DNA from: Pedobacter sp. BS3
GTDB taxonomy: Bacteria; Bacteroidota; Bacteroidia; Sphingobacteriales; Sphingobacteriaceae
Length of the DNA stretch: 64,000 bases
Assembly: GCF_008274585.1 (NCBI RefSeq)
Contig: NZ_VTRT01000007.1
Location: 62,001-126,000 of the forward strand
Reading direction: 5' to 3'
The notes under the pieces are model-generated. The model did no database searches. It saw nothing but the letters and a program-made list of their open reading frames with translations, and was not told where the DNA came from. This document shows positions 29,377-48,445 of the stretch, one piece after another (the stretch's first letter is position 1; each line of letters starts with the position of its first letter). A program made the position numbers and the translations under genes.

Positions 29377-30276
29377 TTAGCGCTGTAAATGGCGCATTTG
29401 CTCCATTAAGACGGTTACTTTAGCCTCTAAGTCGTTAAAACGCTGGTGTAGTTCACCCGGTTCCGGGAACTCGAATATAAAGGAGCCGCGAAGGTACCAT
29501 AACTCTGTTACATCTGACGGGTCTAAAATGATGTTTGGATAATCTCGCTTATTTTGGTTGTCTGATAATAAAATGAGCTTTCCAGTATCGGCAATGCGGT
29601 TTAAAACCCGTTTTGCTACTATTCCGTCCGTCTTTGTGACTATGATATAAATACGTCTATCCCTTATATCCTCTAACGTTTCTACCCATCTACCAACGGC
29701 AATACTACTATTATGCAGCGTTGGCGCCATGCTATGTCCCTTTATCTCGAACGCCCTGTGTAAGCCGCCTTTTAGCCCCGGCATACGTATTGTAGGCAGT
29801 TCCTCGATATATTCCGGGTCTGCGTACCCGTTTAAATAACCGGCTGCTGCTTTAAAGGGAACAAGCGATATAACATCGTCCTGGTTTTCGTTTACAGTGA
29901 TAACCTTTGGAGCGCCAAAATTATGAGTTGGGGGGACAGTTGGGGGGACAGTTTTACCCAAAGTTGGGGGGACATTAAATGCAATTTCCGGCTCTGAAAC
30001 TATACTTAACTCGTCTGATAGCGTAGGGGTATCGTAACTTTTTATAGGAGTTGTATTAGTGCTATATACTTCTATCTCTCTATTGTCATCGAATAAGGAA
30101 TTAATATCAACCCCCTGTTTATACAAAAAAAGTATATACTCGTTTGGTATAAATTTTTTATTTCCCTTTTCAAGTAGACTAATATCCTTTTGCTGTATTC
30201 CGCTTAATGCAGACGCCTCGCTTTGGGATAAACCCAACAGCATCCGGATAGCCTTTAGTTTCTCGTAAATAAGCAT
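29377..30276 (-). CDS. Phage repressor: HTH + S24 peptidase-like
   Basis: 299 residues. An XRE helix-turn-helix lies at ~5-55 (GLSQSEASALSGIQQKDISLLEKGNKKF). A linker with a VPPT repeat (NVPPTLGKTVPPTVPPT) follows, then a LexA/CI-type S24 domain at ~150-260 with catalytic Ser in KGHSMAPTL and Lys in IVAKRVLNR. The last ~35 residues look coiled-coil. It should hold the lytic promoters off and be inactivated by RecA-stimulated self-cleavage, unlike the Mu c repressor, which lacks an S24 domain. The gene faces left, away from the early operon. The linker DNA has three GGGGGG runs. Confidence 0.85.
   Translation of the reverse strand: MLIYEKLKAIRMLLGLSQSEASALSGIQQKDISLLEKGNKKFIPNEYILFLYKQGVDINSLFDDNREIEVYSTNTTPIKSYDTPTLSDELSIVSEPEIAFNVPPTLGKTVPPTVPPTHNFGAPKVITVNENQDDVISLVPFKAAAGYLNGYADPEYIEELPTIRMPGLKGGLHRAFEIKGHSMAPTLHNSSIAVGRWVETLEDIRDRRIYIIVTKTDGIVAKRVLNRIADTGKLILLSDNQNKRDYPNIILDPSDVTELWYLRGSFIFEFPEPGELHQRFNDLEAKVTVLMEQMRHLQR
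30120..30136 (-). promoter_or_regulatory. Intragenic copy of the repressor operator
   Basis: TATACAAAAAAAGTATA is the exact reverse complement of the operator core at 30278 and 30308. It lies inside the repressor coding region about 140 bp from its start and could support looping or autoregulation. Confidence 0.55.
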
Positions 30277-36944: not shown

Positions 36945-37349
36945 ATGAAAAAACTATTTTTATTAGCCGCCATTGCGGCGGCTACAGCCTGCAAAAAAGA
37001 CAACGAACCAACACCGGAACCAAGCCCGGCACAAACCGTAACCTATGCGGTAGAATGCACCTACTGCCTTGTGTATGTAGAAGATAACTATTGGAACCAC
37101 ACCAGCGAAACCGAGCGGGGTAAAAACCAGCACTTTGTGGTTAGTGGTAAATGGCATTACAGTTTTGAAAACAAAGGGCTGGATAGCGTTAAAATGGATA
37201 TATCTGTTAGCGCCCTGCAATACGCCCAACCGGTTAAAGCCAGTATTACAACCAGCGATAACCGCCGAGCCGAGTTTAATAATTACCTGGGCTTTGAGCT
37301 TACCGGGCTTTACCCGTACGACACCACTTTAGCCCTTAACCTGAAATAA
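36945..37349 (+). CDS. Prophage-encoded lipoprotein
   Basis: 134 residues. Signal peptide type II: MKKLFLLAAIAAATACKKDN, Cys at 16, followed by KKDNE, a charged stretch like the Bacteroidota lipoprotein export signal, and a Pro-rich spacer. Surface exposure is therefore plausible. Beta-rich remainder with no recognised domain. A role in superinfection exclusion is speculation. Confidence 0.65.
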   Translation: MKKLFLLAAIAAATACKKDNEPTPEPSPAQTVTYAVECTYCLVYVEDNYWNHTSETERGKNQHFVVSGKWHYSFENKGLDSVKMDISVSALQYAQPVKASITTSDNRRAEFNNYLGFELTGLYPYDTTLALNLK

Positions 37350-39862: not shown

Positions 39863-40288
39863 ATGATACACAGCACTAAAAAGCAAAATGCCATGATAGG
39901 CTATTTGCTTAACCGGTTAAAGGTAGATAGCGAAACGAAAGAAGAATTGATTTACACCTATTCTGACGGGCGTACAACGCACATAAGCCAGTTAACCGGC
40001 ACCGAGGCCGCCGCCGTTATACAAATGCTTGTAAACGGCGCAAAACTGCCTGAAACGGCTGCCAGCAGAATGCGCCGCAAAATACTAAGCCTTGCCCACG
40101 AGCTGGGCTGGAAAACTACCGAGAAAAATGCCGCAGGAAAGTATAAGGTAGACATAAAGCGGGTAAACAACTGGTGTAAGCAATACGGCTATTTGCATAA
40201 ACCATTAGACGAATACACCGCCGACGAGTTGCCCCGGCTTGTTACCCAGTTTGAAAATATGTACAGGAAACATTTAAACGCAATGTAA
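39863..40288 (+). CDS. GemA-like (Mu gp16/DUF1018) phage regulatory protein
   Basis: 141 residues from ATG 39863; the longer form from 39824 would start inside the attC-like site. The C-terminal half with RMRRKILSLAHELGWKTTE and VDIKRVNNWCKQYGYLHKPL fits the GemA/DUF1018 pattern, which in Mu affects host gyrase and gene expression. The N-terminal part is KKQNAMIGYLLNRLKVDSET. Identification is moderate. Confidence 0.55.
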   Translation: MIHSTKKQNAMIGYLLNRLKVDSETKEELIYTYSDGRTTHISQLTGTEAAAVIQMLVNGAKLPETAASRMRRKILSLAHELGWKTTEKNAAGKYKVDIKRVNNWCKQYGYLHKPLDEYTADELPRLVTQFENMYRKHLNAM

Positions 40289-40306
40289 AAACCAGATGTA
40301 CCAAAA
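40288..40306 (+). promoter_or_regulatory. Second internal copy of the transposase-site motif
   Basis: AAAACCAGATGTACCAAAA begins on the last base of the GemA-like stop codon, is non-coding, and is almost identical to the copy at 30373. It lies just before the structured leader of the antirepressor-like gene. Confidence 0.55.
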
Positions 40307-40343
40307 ATTTGCAACTGTAAAATAAAATAGCCTACTTTGCCTT

Positions 40344-40522
40344 TGACTTACAATTAGCAGTCAAGGGCTATAACACTTGACATATTTTTTAACAATAACA
40401 GAAGCCCTGTTATATGGTGGTGCAAAGGAAACAATGCACTGGTTACACGCCCTGCGTGCTAATTGTAAGTCACACCTAAGTAACAGGGCTTCTGCGTGTA
40501 ATTTTCTTTTCATGACTTACAA
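40344..40522 (+). promoter_or_regulatory. Structured leader with interlocking repeats before the antirepressor-like gene
   Basis: Four arms alternate: A TGACTTACAATTAGCA (40344-40359), B CAGAAGCCCTGTTA (40399-40412), A' (40457-40472, exact complement of A), B' TAACAGGGCTTCTG (40481-40494). A-A' (16 bp) and B-B' (14 bp) would form a pseudoknot. The first 10 bases of A recur at 40513-40522 over the start codon, so A' can alternatively pair with the ribosome-loading region. Small hairpins GTGCA/TGCAC and CACGC/GCGTG lie in the loops. This looks like a translational switch, but it could also be a DNA recombination or replication structure. Confidence 0.6.
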
Positions 40523-41018
40523 AGAAAATCAGCAGGTGCTTAACCTGCAAGTTACCGATGGTTTGGCGGTAGCGGTTATTCAAAACCCAAGCCATGAATT
40601 TTTAATGCCCGTTAAAGATGTGGCTACCGGTTACGGCGTTTCTGCCGGTACGGTTAGAGACCATTTATCTAAAAACCTCAATGAGTTTGTTTATGGAAAG
40701 CACTATGTAAAGGGTGTCGATATTTTCGACACCCTTGGTAAAAACGCCCAGCCCCACGCTGTGTACTGGACAAAAGCGGGCATAGTGCGTTTGGGCTTTT
40801 TTATTAAGAGCGAGCGGGCAAAGCAGTTTAGGAACTGGGCTGAAAACCTGATATTGCAGGTAAGCGCCCCGCAGGTACAGCTACCGCCAGTAAAAAGGCG
40901 TAACCATAATCGGTTAAGCCCCGAACGGTTGTTAGATATTATGGCCGACGTGTGTTTGATAGAGGATACCGGGTTGCGTTTGCGTATAGCTAATAAACTG
41001 AAAGGGGGTGCGGAATGA
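40512..41018 (+). CDS. Antirepressor/Bro-N-like phage protein
   Basis: 168 residues from ATG 40512; a TTG-initiated extension to 40377 would run through the structured leader and is rejected. MPVKDVATGYGVSAGTVRDHL followed by GKHYVKGVDIF and YWTKAGIVRLGFFIKSERAKQFRNWAE is the pattern of phage antirepressor/Bro-type N-terminal domains. The C terminus is basic (VKRRNHNRLSPERL). It may interfere with the S24 repressor or bind DNA. It overlaps the next start by 4 bases. Confidence 0.65.
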   Translation: MTYKENQQVLNLQVTDGLAVAVIQNPSHEFLMPVKDVATGYGVSAGTVRDHLSKNLNEFVYGKHYVKGVDIFDTLGKNAQPHAVYWTKAGIVRLGFFIKSERAKQFRNWAENLILQVSAPQVQLPPVKRRNHNRLSPERLLDIMADVCLIEDTGLRLRIANKLKGGAE

Positions 41019-41263
41019 AACAGCATAAAAAACTTGACCTGCATACCCTTGTAGTAGTCATGATGAGCCTTAATGGCTGGAACCTGATGCCCAGGAAACA
41101 CAACGAACTGTTGATGCATCGCATAATTACCAATAATAAGTTTGCCAGTCGGCAGGCATACCAGGAGTATCAGTTTGAACTGGTGGAAAGCATCGGCCGT
41201 ACATTTGAGGCAGGGCCGCTGCGCTGCGTGCATATGGATATACATATTGACGATGTTTTTTAA
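41015..41263 (+). CDS. Hypothetical phage protein
   Basis: 82 residues, MKQHKKLDLHTLVVVMMSLN at the start, helical middle, acidic end. No family recognised. It is coupled to the gene before by ATGA and followed by a strong terminator, so it ends the early/middle transcription unit. Confidence 0.6.
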   Translation: MKQHKKLDLHTLVVVMMSLNGWNLMPRKHNELLMHRIITNNKFASRQAYQEYQFELVESIGRTFEAGPLRCVHMDIHIDDVF

Positions 41264-41277
41264 ATAATTAACTTTAC

Positions 41278-41306
41278 GCCCCGGCAATACCGCCGGGGCT
41301 TTTTTA
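41278..41306 (+). terminator. Rho-independent terminator closing the early region
   Basis: GCCCCGGC and GCCGGGGC around AATACC, followed by TTTTTT. It lies 14 bases after the preceding stop codon. Confidence 0.9.
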
Positions 41307-41316
41307 TTTATAAACC

Positions 41317-41766
41317 ATGAAAAAAACACTACTTATTTTAACCGCTGCTATCCTGTTAAGTGCCTGCAAAAAGAGCGACGATAAACCTAAAACCGGAAGT
41401 ATAGAGGTTAAGTTATCGTATTTTTACAACGACTTTCAGGGTTACAAGGCCGATGTTGGCGCCCGTATTTACCTGTTTAAGCAAACTGGCAAAAGTTATG
41501 ATAAAAGCTATGTAAACTACTCAATAGGCGCACTACAGGTTTCTGGAAGTGATGAAATTGTATATTATGATTACAGGGCTGAGGCCGATGTAACCGGTAC
41601 GGCTAAAATTGATAATGTGCCTTATGGTAAATACCTGTTAGTTGCAGCAAGTAAAGGCCGGTTTGTGTATTCTGTTAAACCCATAGAAGTAAACAGCGTA
41701 AGCCAAAATTTTGTAAAAAACTTTGGTTACCTGCATGAGTTTGACGATAACGGCGAAAGCTGGTAA
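41317..41766 (+). CDS. Prophage-encoded lipoprotein
   Basis: 149 residues. Lipobox in LTAAILLSACKKSDDKPK: Cys 17 followed by KKSDD, again a charged export-signal-like stretch. The mature part looks like a small beta-sandwich (GSIEVKLSYFYNDF, GTAKIDNVPYGKYLLVAASKG), similar to carboxypeptidase-regulatory-like or Ig-like folds. It sits downstream of the early terminator with no obvious partner and may be a lysogenic conversion gene. Confidence 0.65.
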   Translation: MKKTLLILTAAILLSACKKSDDKPKTGSIEVKLSYFYNDFQGYKADVGARIYLFKQTGKSYDKSYVNYSIGALQVSGSDEIVYYDYRAEADVTGTAKIDNVPYGKYLLVAASKGRFVYSVKPIEVNSVSQNFVKNFGYLHEFDDNGESW

Positions 41767-43188: not shown

Positions 43189-43292
43189 TACCTTTGTACC
43201 GTTAGCCGTACAAAGGAGTACTTAATACCGCTGCTGAAAAATTGCAGGGAGGCGCAATAAGGCAATGTTAAATTTAACGTTGCCTTATTTTT
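43189..43292 (+). ncRNA. Candidate antisense/intergenic small RNA
   Basis: On the plus strand a -7-like TACCTTTG (43189-43196), overlapping the perfect inverted pair CCTTTGTAC/GTACAAAGG (43191-43199, 43208-43216), is followed 60-90 bases later by a strong terminator: AAGGCAATGTTAAATTTAACGTTGCCTT core (43259-43286) and TATTTTTTT. This would give a ~85-nt RNA whose 3' end is antisense to the end of the portal fusion gene. No -33 TTTG is seen, so expression is uncertain. Confidence 0.35.
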
Positions 43293-45987
43293 TTACAGGC
43301 AATCCCCGCCTATGCCTGTATAAATCGTTTTCGTTTTCCTTGTTTAAGCTTGACGTATCTTTTATTACTACATTATACCATGTGTTTATACTTAAATTCC
43401 CCTCCTGGTCTATGTTGCAGATAACTTTTACAATTGTGTTTTTGTAGTATTTTATATACACGTAGCTATCAAACTGGCTGCTGCTATCGTTATTAATCCA
43501 AACCTCGTCGGGGTTCTTTATGGCATCTTCTAATCCCGGCAGGTATTTATACCTGTCTTTATAGTTTTCATTGTTGGGGTTTGTGTGTCCGTAAAGCCGG
43601 TTCTTTTCTATTACAACGTCCCTGTTGTTATAGTCTGTTAAAACCATTTTGCGGCTGCTAATTTTGTATTTTTCGTAAAATTGGGTAATAATATCCCGAC
43701 TATCCGCCCCGGTATATGTTTCGGTAGCCTTAGCCTGCCGGTCTAAAATTGGCTGCATACCCCAATCGTCGTAGTACATTTGCCCAACATTATTTAACAC
43801 CTTATCCGGTGTGCTGCTATACTGCTGGCTTTCTAAAAATACCTCTTTAGCGTTCGCCCTGTTAATGCCAAAGCCACTATTTACAGACCGCTCCCATTCT
43901 TTTGTATCAAAAAAATCAGATGCACGCTTGCGGCTGGTTTTTATTTCAGCTTCGGTTACTTCGCTTTCCAATACCGGGACAATGTAACACCTGCACCCCC
44001 AACCATTCGGCGGAAATAGCTTATTCCAAATAGGGTCATCCCACGGCAGCGTAATGCCGTGTAATTCCTGGTGTTCAACCCGTACTTTGTTATCAAGCTG
44101 GGTCATGTACCGCCAGTACTTAAATACTTTGGTTTGCCCCAATAGCCGGTAATATGTGGCAGCACTTTCGCCAACAGCATTGGCCGTTTGCCATTCGGTT
44201 AGTAAGTGCTGTTTATCCTTTACACCGTACAGCTTTTTTACCAGCCGGTAGAACTCGTCAAAATTGGACGTTTTACGGTATAACGCGTTTACCTCGGCGC
44301 TTTGTGCGGCTGCTTTTATAGCGCTAAACTGAAATAAATTTAGCTCCCATGCTGTTTGTATTTTGGGGTCGGTATAGCCGTATTCAAAGCCCAAGTCCGT
44401 TAGCTTAACTTGTTTGGGCTTTTCCTGCCAGCCTTTAACGAATGCCCCTAATAATGCCTCTGCATTACGAAAAAATAAATCGGGGTACATGAAATTTTTG
44501 CCTTTAGCCTGCCATACGGTTAGGGCAAAAGCCTTTATATCCATATCGGGTATGCTGGCTAACTTAATCGTGTGGGCTTCGCCACACTGGCACGCCCCGG
44601 CTATCGGCATTGCTGCTAATACCGGGGCTGGTTGAAAAAGCCGTAACAGACGCCGCCAGATACCCGGCTTTATGCTTAGTTCCTCTTTGTCGTCGCCGGG
44701 CTTTTGTGCAGTTTTTTTGCCCGAACGCCGGGGGGTACGTGCAATTTCTTCGGGGGTATTTTCGGGCAAATCTTCGTTTTCGCTATCGTCAAGGGCTTTT
44801 TTTAGCTCGTCGTAGTTATCGGGCTTTCTTACGCCGTATTCCTCGTAAAAAAAGTCGTCGTCTATCGGCACTTTTAAATCGTTACGCATTGATTTATGTA
44901 CCTCGTAAGCCTCTTTGTTTAGCTTCTTTGTTTTCTTAAGTACAAAGGTTCCGCCCTTTGTGTCGAACCCGTGCGCTTTCAGAACTTTTATAAAACGGCT
45001 GTTCAGGTAACGGCGGACAAAAGTTAAATCCGTTTCGTTTTTCTTCTCGTCCTGTTCCTGATGAATTTCCGCCTGCGCATAACCGGACGACTTACTGCTG
45101 TCGGTTGTTTCGGTAGAGCCTAAAAGTACCTTGCTTATGTAGGCGTCCATTTTATCGGCAAACTTTGCCTGCAGGTCGCCGTTGGCATTTCCGGTATTGT
45201 TTTTAATATCGACTTTAGTGCCAGCAGGGCGGATAATTACACCGCCCCCGCCCATGTCTAAAATAGCTTTAGAAAGCTTTTGGCGCTGGCCTTCATCGAA
45301 GCCGTCCCATTCCGCGTCGATAATTCCCCGGCCGAATATTTCTATAAACTCCGCCCAATCGCTTATGTCGCCCCGCTTTAAAATGGCGTACATGCTGGCG
45401 GAAAGGAACAGCCCCAAATCGTCCGGCTTACCAAATTCCATAATGGTTTTTGCATAAATACCCTCACGGATGTTTATTCCCTCGTCGCCGTGCTGGTCAA
45501 ACGCAATAACGCCCCGTTCCGGGCGCATGTGTTTTTTCGGGATGGAATAAACGGCAAATTCGTTTTGCTCATTGTCGTTTTTAAAAAACGTCGGTTCAAC
45601 CATGCTGTAACCCCAAGCCTTACTGTTCATAATTTCAGTAAGCAAGTCGTCAAAACCGATGCAGTCAATCAGCTGGTTTATTTCCTCAACCGGGTTGCCG
45701 TCTTTGTCGGTAAACTGCCATTCGGCCGAGGTAACCGCATCTATGCGTTTCTGCCAAACGGCAATTACCTGCCCGTCGGTAGTGCTTATGTCGTGATATA
45801 GGTTGTAGAGTGCAACCCGGCGAGGGATTAAACTTTCTGCTGCCTTGGATGCGTTCCGCCAGTCGTCGAGGTCAACGCTTCTGCGGGTGTACGGCATTAC
45901 CGTAATTTTCTGCACAACGGCAGGCTGGGCGTTGCCGTCTGCTGTTTTTTGGGGCTTAAAGCCAATGGTTGTTTCTGTGTAGCTCAT
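43285..45987 (-). CDS. Fusion: Mu-like portal (DUF935) + head morphogenesis (F/gp30) + PBECR-like nuclease domain
   Basis: 900 residues. Residues 1 to ~430 are a DUF935/gp29-type portal (IPRRVALYNLYHDISTTDG, NSKAWGYSMVEPTFF, GVIIRPAGTKVDIK, KVLLGSTETTDSSKSSGYAQ). After an acidic linker, residues ~480-740 are Mu F/SPP1 gp7-like, ending in HQELHGITLPWDDPIWNKLFPPNGWGCRC. The last ~130 residues (TQFYEKYKISSRK, YKYLPGLEDAIKNPDEVW, HRRGLPVKK) resemble phage-attached PBECR RelE/barnase-like toxins. Portal and F are separate genes in Mu. The toxin-like tail may enter the cell with DNA or protect the prophage (inference). Confidence 0.75.
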   Translation of the reverse strand: MSYTETTIGFKPQKTADGNAQPAVVQKITVMPYTRRSVDLDDWRNASKAAESLIPRRVALYNLYHDISTTDGQVIAVWQKRIDAVTSAEWQFTDKDGNPVEEINQLIDCIGFDDLLTEIMNSKAWGYSMVEPTFFKNDNEQNEFAVYSIPKKHMRPERGVIAFDQHGDEGINIREGIYAKTIMEFGKPDDLGLFLSASMYAILKRGDISDWAEFIEIFGRGIIDAEWDGFDEGQRQKLSKAILDMGGGGVIIRPAGTKVDIKNNTGNANGDLQAKFADKMDAYISKVLLGSTETTDSSKSSGYAQAEIHQEQDEKKNETDLTFVRRYLNSRFIKVLKAHGFDTKGGTFVLKKTKKLNKEAYEVHKSMRNDLKVPIDDDFFYEEYGVRKPDNYDELKKALDDSENEDLPENTPEEIARTPRRSGKKTAQKPGDDKEELSIKPGIWRRLLRLFQPAPVLAAMPIAGACQCGEAHTIKLASIPDMDIKAFALTVWQAKGKNFMYPDLFFRNAEALLGAFVKGWQEKPKQVKLTDLGFEYGYTDPKIQTAWELNLFQFSAIKAAAQSAEVNALYRKTSNFDEFYRLVKKLYGVKDKQHLLTEWQTANAVGESAATYYRLLGQTKVFKYWRYMTQLDNKVRVEHQELHGITLPWDDPIWNKLFPPNGWGCRCYIVPVLESEVTEAEIKTSRKRASDFFDTKEWERSVNSGFGINRANAKEVFLESQQYSSTPDKVLNNVGQMYYDDWGMQPILDRQAKATETYTGADSRDIITQFYEKYKISSRKMVLTDYNNRDVVIEKNRLYGHTNPNNENYKDRYKYLPGLEDAIKNPDEVWINNDSSSQFDSYVYIKYYKNTIVKVICNIDQEGNLSINTWYNVVIKDTSSLNKENENDLYRHRRGLPVKK

Positions 45988-47921: not shown

Positions 47922-48379
47922 CGCAATAAGGTTTTGATAAATACGTCCGCCCATTGGGTTATTATCCGGGCATCGTTCAGGTTTTCGGGGCGTACAAATT
48001 GTATTAGCTTGGTAAGGGCGTGTATTATTTCCTCGCGGCTGGCGTTGGTTTCAAGCTCCTTTATATCCTTAATCAGCTTGCGCCGTACATCGCCTAATTT
48101 GCTATCGGCAAAGCGCCGCCCTTCCGGCTGGTTTTTAATAAACTCTTGTATTTCGGTAAGCTCGTCCAGTAGGTCGCTCATACGTTCCTCACGGGTTAGC
48201 AGAAAGTTTTTTTTCAGGCTTTCCCACTTACCCTCGATAACCCATTTGCTTATGGTGTTTTCGCTTACCCCGACACGCTGGGCAAGTTCTTTTTGCAGCG
48301 TCAAACCCTCGCGGGTATACAAAATTTTAGCATGGCTTTTAACCCGCTCCAATTCCTCTTTTGTGAGCCGTTTTTTCAT
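47918..48379 (-). CDS. Mu gp27-like small terminase/DUF1804-type protein
   Basis: 153 residues from MKKRLTKEELERVKSHAKIL. The helix-turn-helix GLTLQKELAQRVGVSENTISKWVIEGKWESLK lies at ~22-60, followed by an oligomerisation helix. It is directly upstream of and overlapping the large subunit, as expected for the DNA-recognition subunit. Confidence 0.75.
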   Translation of the reverse strand: MKKRLTKEELERVKSHAKILYTREGLTLQKELAQRVGVSENTISKWVIEGKWESLKKNFLLTREERMSDLLDELTEIQEFIKNQPEGRRFADSKLGDVRRKLIKDIKELETNASREEIIHALTKLIQFVRPENLNDARIITQWADVFIKTLLR

Positions 48380-48445
48380 GTTTTTTTTGGTAGATGTAGC
48401 CCAAAATTGCACTTATAAAGAGGGGGGTAAAAACGCAGAAATTAT

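Follow-up and report, generated by a model that had tools for sequence, protein, structure and literature searches.

In phage P1, the antisense RNA C4 represses translation of the antirepressor, as stated in excerpts of two papers (PMC12197685, PMC8546580). For P1 and P7 it is further described, in an excerpt of a third (PMC5320573), that the 5' end of C4 is processed by RNase P and that an element called a' gives the RNA its specificity. The P1 record (AF234172) lists in this order the c4 promoters, a1, b1, the C4 RNA, a2, b2, icd and ant, with a1 at 48255-48261 and the C4 RNA at 48343-48419. Here a1 and b1 are labelled 'putative', and a2 and b2 'repression of icd ant translation'. The C4-like sRNAs of Acinetobacter baumannii also combine a constant core with a variable a' and are apparently processed from longer transcripts, but they occur in many copies in one genome and their targets are given as unknown (excerpt of PMC5320573). 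The sar RNA of phage P22 likewise acts as an antisense RNA and prevents an antirepressor mRNA from being translated, although the excerpt of PMC12197685 describing it mentions neither a C4 fold nor an a1 site. Both the names 'c4 antisense RNA' and 'c4-a1b1' appear in Weinberg 2010 (PMC2864571). Among the matches listed in the openly licensed literature there are general C4 papers only, and no report of C4 in phages of Bacteroidota.

We analyzed a stretch of 64,000 nucleotides from Pedobacter sp. BS3 (hereafter: the window), in which a leader with several complementary arms precedes a gene for a Bro-N antirepressor-like protein of 168 aa (ant, 40512-41018, forward strand). The protein scores 26.5 bits against the Pfam family Bro-N (PF02498), which is barely above the cut-off of 25.6, and two of its homologues remain under that cut-off with 14.1 and 14.3 bits. 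Its best PHROG match is to a group of unknown function (E 1.3e-13), two weaker matches are named anti-repressor (E 1.4e-4 and 4.6e-4), and an NCBIfam search yielded nothing useful. Judged from these matches, Ant is antirepressor-like and its antirepressor role putative. At the left end of the prophage (29377-30276, reverse strand) we find a probable prophage repressor, which matches peptidase S24 (31.6 bits, cut-off 23.3) and weakly HTH_3 (18.9 bits, under the cut-off of 23) in Pfam; we infer that this S24-type protein is a possible partner of Ant. The prophage also holds a Mu-type portal fused to F-like and PBECR2 domains, DUF3164 and a Mu-type tail gene, and is a Mu-like prophage of Bacteroidota type. 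The Mu portal family is present in 17 of the 18 records with an Ant homologue, the remaining record being a fragment of 5.3 kb; six of these 18 are bacterial genomes, where portal and ant do not necessarily belong to one prophage.

Two further observations concern the gene content of this prophage. Portal, F-like domain and PBECR2 nuclease-like domain occupy one frame of 900 aa (43285-45987). There are also two small proteins with lipoprotein-like N-termini (36945-37349 and 41317-41766), one of them located shortly 3' of ant and the small frame following it.

The first-pass annotation of the leader had proposed four arms in the crossed order A-B-A'-B', with the first ten bases of A repeated over the start codon of ant. 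Positions and perfect pairing are borne out: A (40344-40359) forms 16 pairs with A' (40457-40472), and B (40399-40412) forms 14 pairs with B' (40481-40494), all on the forward strand. The start-codon copy is confirmed at 40513-40522, where, with the ATG at 40512, it covers the UG of the AUG and the codons following it, and offers 10 nt complementary to A'. Each arm occurs once on the forward strand of the window, and the 10-mer TGACTTACAA has 40344 and 40513 as its only forward-strand positions. The pairing of A with A' extends into an imperfect inverted repeat of 31 nt (81%), which includes AGGGC at 40364-40368 (forward strand), able to pair with GCCCT at 40449-40453. As seen by eye in the folds, several relatives have GGGGC/GCCCC-type pairs at this b1-like position. 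That such complementarity exceeds chance had also been claimed, and rightly so: the longest perfect inverted repeat within 40300-40560 is 16, against a maximum of 14 (reached twice) in 5000 dinucleotide shuffles. The fold of this region lies 4.5 sd below that of shuffled sequences, with none of 200 shuffles as low. Since the order of the elements is that of the P1 record, we take A as a1, A' as a', B:B' as the basal stem of C4 and the start-codon copy as a2.

The start codon itself sits in the 11-nt loop of a perfect inverted repeat of 9 bp (ATTTTCTTT/AAAGAAAAT, 40501-40529), and a comparable repeat of 8 bp surrounds the start in one homologous locus (L005). This structure may also influence access to the AUG.

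A search of the leader against Rfam with cmscan returns the family c4-2 (RF02944) at 40403-40492 with 40.6 bits (E 7.8e-7), 0.4 bits below the curated cut-off of 41; the alignment retains the UAUGG and CCUAA stretches. Three of the ten homologous loci scanned pass the cut-off (L051 with 53.5, L050 with 44.6 and L069 with 41.8 bits), and their matches are found in the same place before the gene as in the window. No match to RF02944 was obtained in L005-L007 at E up to 0.1. The P1 C4 model (RF01695), which scores phage P1 itself at 68.8 bits, has no match in the window's genome at E up to 0.001, and the other Rfam matches near 41142-41318 are all under their cut-offs. Across the phylum, c4-2 matches are present in 10 of 395 genomes; nine of these come from one genus and contain two to six matches each. 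The family reportedly stems from a 2017 paper, and the clan given for it (CL00128) presumably includes the P1 C4 RNA as well. Based on the matches in the window and in the homologous leaders, we interpret B:B' as the stem at the base of a C4-type RNA, with a core at 40399-40494 (forward strand).

As only two of 100 close-relative genomes contain a match to Ant (the window's own and, weakly, G057), homologues were taken from scans of viral and genome contigs. A phage collection gave eight weak matches, none covering 80% of Ant. In total 42 distinct loci were obtained, 12 from viral and 30 from genome contigs. Seven were left out beforehand: L004, with an Ant 100% identical to that of the window and the same leader; L041, with no upstream sequence; and L068, L074, L075, L076 and L077, which have no N-terminal match or are distant. 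The other 35 and the window together make 36 loci, for which the start codons were picked by hand before any triplet was computed. A strict triplet was defined as exact and at least 6 nt long, with a2 positioned at the start codon and the other two sites upstream of it, a' at a distance of 30-65 nt and a1 at 125-195 nt. It is found, in one register, in 23 of the 36 loci, compared to 86 of 10800 shuffles (0.8%) and two of 362 control starts, for which ATG frames of 80 codons or more were taken from both strands of these loci. The codes differ widely between loci (for example TGACTTACAA, TGTCTTACAA, TGAATTACAA, TGCAAACAAGA, TGATCGTCA and GAGAACA), and some loci have one in common (L044 and L045; L051 and L069). 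Arms diverging without compensation, the outcome that the first-pass annotation had named as speaking against its reading, are thus the opposite of what is seen: A, A' and the start-codon copy change together in these 23 loci, and the pairing of A' with either A or the start codon looks selected. As this concerted change of the three sites recurs in many related phages, we regard the module as a genuine regulatory RNA belonging to a known class.

The 13 loci lacking a strict triplet are of different sorts. Little upstream sequence is available for L043 and L063, and by eye shifted, split or wobble-paired versions are recognized in L042, L058 and L061. No version was seen by eye in L057, L064, L065, L067, L070, L072 and L073. 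The last one, L071, from an uncultured Roseivirga, carries upstream of its Ant homologue a C4-like module (2420-2650), which has a separate triplet (TCTCACTATAA) and precedes another gene, of 125 aa; this module accounts for one of the two control matches.

The leader of L048 is the same as that of L006, so 22 distinct triplet loci remain. Their a2 matches the a' of the same locus with a median of 8 nt against 5 nt for the a' of other loci, the own a' being best or joint best in 21 of 22. The medians for a1 are 10 and 5 nt (own best or joint best in 19 of 22). When a' is swapped among loci, none of 10000 permutations reaches the observed sums, for a1 as well as for a2, with the proviso that permutations and shuffles ignore the relatedness of the loci. 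By eye, the Ant residues directly after the start (40512-40523 in the window, and in homologues) change along with the antisense code, which may mean that the code limits what the protein can have at its N-terminus.

Covariation was assessed on 18 chosen sequences that align, namely 11 of the 22 ant loci and seven of 30 c4-2 loci. In this alignment, from which the consensus structure was also derived, 96.6% of the cells are paired in the basal stem and the inner GGUG/CACC stem, and 11 of the 12 pairs in these two helices have double changes. For the B:B' helix the values are 98.1% and eight of eight modelled pairs. None of 500 shuffles reaches any of the five measures, and slid controls are far lower. 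A model built from the 18 sequences (R1) matched only L050 and L054 among 25 further sources, which leaves layout and single-sequence folding as the basis of the C4 fold in nine distinct triplet loci. The same model was considered as one uniting all loci with P1 and was rejected, as P1 is not matched. Taken on its sequence features, the leader segment from B to B' appears to be a C4-type antisense RNA, and the module appears to be of a known kind with some new features.

Directly before A lies a possible promoter (40309-40339, forward strand), composed of TTG at 40309-40311 and a degenerate -7 box CTACTTTG at 40332-40339. The exact motif TAnnTTTG, which we take to be the -7 box of Bacteroidota, is located 2-5 nt before a1 in 17 of the 22 distinct loci, against 10 of 4400 placements elsewhere. 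The best box has one mismatch in L054 and L069, and two in the window, L005 and L051. This promoter model predicts transcription to begin at or near the first base of A, which would put a1 at the very 5' end of the RNA. A transcription start after A' (40472), which had been raised as an argument against the switch, is considered unlikely given the exact box before A in most loci, though less firmly for the window with its two mismatches.

Using equal windows of 18 nt, the a1:a' duplex is stronger than a2:a' in all 22 loci; earlier energies had compared a 30-nt a1 to an 18-nt a2 window and were repeated with 18 nt each. The longest exact run is longer for a1:a' in 15 loci, equal in three and shorter in four. 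When the C4 segment is folded alone, an inner hairpin (40441-40464, forward strand) is predicted to hold the 5' half of a', while the ten bases at its 3' end (40463-40472) form a predicted single-stranded seed with an unpaired probability of 0.78. Over the 22 loci the a2-matching part of a' has a median unpaired probability of 0.77 versus 0.18 for the preceding 8 nt, with L006, L049 and L060 as exceptions. In L060, which has two placements of a1, the nested-fold comparison is based on the one from the triplet test and the permutation, promoter and 18-nt duplex tests on the other.

The first-pass annotation had further proposed a mutually exclusive choice of A' between A and the start region, and a pseudoknot when both helices form. 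Such an either-or choice is plausible. The linkers between the arms are 39, 44 and 8 nt and may let both helices form together, so that A:A' and B:B' need not exclude each other. The best nested folds of the window, obtained with programs used without pseudoknot scoring, are close (-58.1 kcal/mol with A:A' and -54.2 kcal/mol with the C4 stem). Across 23 loci the energy gap between the best nested fold containing a1:a' and the one containing the C4 stem ranges from -10.2 to +8.4 kcal/mol; these loci include L040, for which the stem in this comparison is probably wrong and another was used for the seed and 18-nt duplex tests. Since the minimum-energy folds of 40300-40560 and 40344-40523 contain the C4 stem, the balance between A:A' and the C4 stem depends on the ends chosen.

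Taken together, we consider it probable that this leader functions as a C4-type antisense module within a Mu-like Bacteroidota prophage, in which released C4 silences ant and a1 sequesters a'. The anatomy, the family match, the covariation and the calculated order of affinities were obtained directly. A promoter just upstream of A would give one transcript with a1, C4 (with a' inside), a2 over the AUG, and ant. The C4 part is predicted to fold into a stem-loop core that keeps the 3' part of a' single-stranded. By analogy with P1, C4 that has been released from the leader would use this seed to pair with a2 of ant mRNAs and prevent initiation, so that a lysogen would silence both its own ant and the ant of an incoming phage that shares the code. 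An unprocessed leader would not silence itself because the stronger a1:a' duplex would occupy a', whereas C4 supplied from outside would bind to a1, leaving the nascent a' free and reinforcing silence. Ant would in turn lift the S24-type repressor. It is thus expression, processing, action in trans, the role of a1 and this last step that we infer.

Other readings of the same elements need to be weighed. The first-pass annotation had read the leader as a post-transcriptional switch in cis; its choice of A' between two partners is plausible, but the C4-type antisense RNA in B...B' was missed. Such a switch, toggling between A:A' with the AUG free and A':start with the AUG covered and involving no diffusible RNA, would agree with the conserved triplet and with the range of nested-fold differences given above. 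However, the middle segment is matched by a recognized family of small RNAs, its own stem covaries, and the same layout acts in trans in P1 (P1 record; excerpt of PMC8546580), which makes cis action as the sole explanation quite unlikely. Probably, then, the leader is not only a cis switch, as B...B' would be a C4-type RNA. Alternatively, B:B' might be the terminator of a transcription attenuator, where a1:a' forms first and delays B:B', so that transcription reads into ant. The arms a1 and a' are transcribed ahead of B', and at least 5 T start at or within two bases of the stem end in nine of the 22 loci (L006, L007, L040, L045, L046, L053, L055, L059 and L060), yet such a run is absent from the window and 12 other loci, and we find attenuation an unlikely account of the leader. 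A terminator role could nonetheless coexist with the antisense role.

At the level of DNA, the perfect repeats A, A' and the start-codon copy might be regarded as operator half-sites of a repressor, the more so as A is found at the probable promoter. This explanation is very improbable: the variable sequences track each other within each locus, and the words of at least 7 bases common to 40251-40345 and the region before the S24 gene all consist of A+T. It might also be argued that a1 is a relic of target duplication without a function. The c4-2 loci often have near-identical copies of a1 and a2 of up to 21 nt, and in seven of the 22 ant loci a1 does not match a' over a longer exact run than a2 does; on the other hand, the a1:a' duplex is calculated to be the stronger one throughout although the sequences differ between loci, and in the other 15 its run is the longer one. 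A relic is therefore improbable in our estimate.

Within the preferred reading of a C4-type antisense module, the role of a1 may extend further. Tentatively, and aware that it may well be wrong, we propose a self-exempting antisense code, in which the stronger a1 spares a new transcript and resident C4 flips later leaders off, resulting in a bistable switch. If this holds, an immunity code of about 6-11 nt is written three times in each of these Mu-like Bacteroidota phages (in a1, in a' and in the start codon with the first codons). An incoming phage could express ant because the stronger a1 would keep its new transcript from silencing itself, while the existing C4 of a lysogen would take both a1 and a2 and turn later leaders to 'off'. 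The specificity could then drift into new immunity groups, and it would constrain the first residues of Ant.

The c4-2 family shares with the window the sequence and structure match, including the UAUGG...CCUAA motif. Its loci (L008-L037) also show a2:a' matching above permutation as a set (median own match 7 nt versus 5 nt, 0 of 10000 permutations), based on 27 of 30 loci after leaving out L014 and L033 (gene not adjacent) and L031 (no gene), and most have an upstream copy of a1. Their a1/a'/a2 codes vary, several loci having one in common. They differ in that they mostly precede a protein of 77-79 aa without a family, with a2 mostly just before the ATG. These proteins of about 77 aa are mostly paralogous, and the one that was searched has no Pfam or NCBIfam match. 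By eye, several c4-2 loci have an ATG after the a1 copy that could start a leader peptide.

With the C4 system of P1 and P7 (immI) the leader has in common the order of promoter, a1, C4, a2 and antirepressor gene, an antisense segment located within the leader that precedes its target, and sites upstream (a1) and downstream (a2) of C4 that are both complementary to a'. Differences are seen in the pairing itself: P1 has split a and b matches of 7-8 nt (exact runs of 7 nt for a1, b1 and a2, and 8 nt for b2), whereas a1:a' in the window is 16 nt and unbroken. P1 also has b1 and b2; in the window the 31-nt repeat contains the b1-like AGGGC/GCCCT, and reading of the sequence revealed no b2. The P1 target is the region before icd, which precedes ant, whereas a2 here consists of the AUG and the following codons of the Bro-N gene itself. 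Calculated P1 duplexes (in unequal windows) are -24.2 kcal/mol for a1b1 and -37.7 kcal/mol for a2b2, opposite to the ant loci, so a dominating a1 is no rule of the C4 family.

Summarizing, P1-type antisense immunity would be carried into a Mu-like Bacteroidota phage lineage, where the start codon is the target and one code is present in three copies. The many natural code variants allow for testing the role of the upstream a1, only 'putative' in the P1 record, and, if the proposal is true, immunity groups of such phages could become predictable from sequence. The architecture is that of C4 and as such already known; within these comparisons, it differs from P1 in the start-codon and coding target, the long unbroken a1:a' of the window, the calculated dominance of a1 and the Mu-like Bacteroidota setting.
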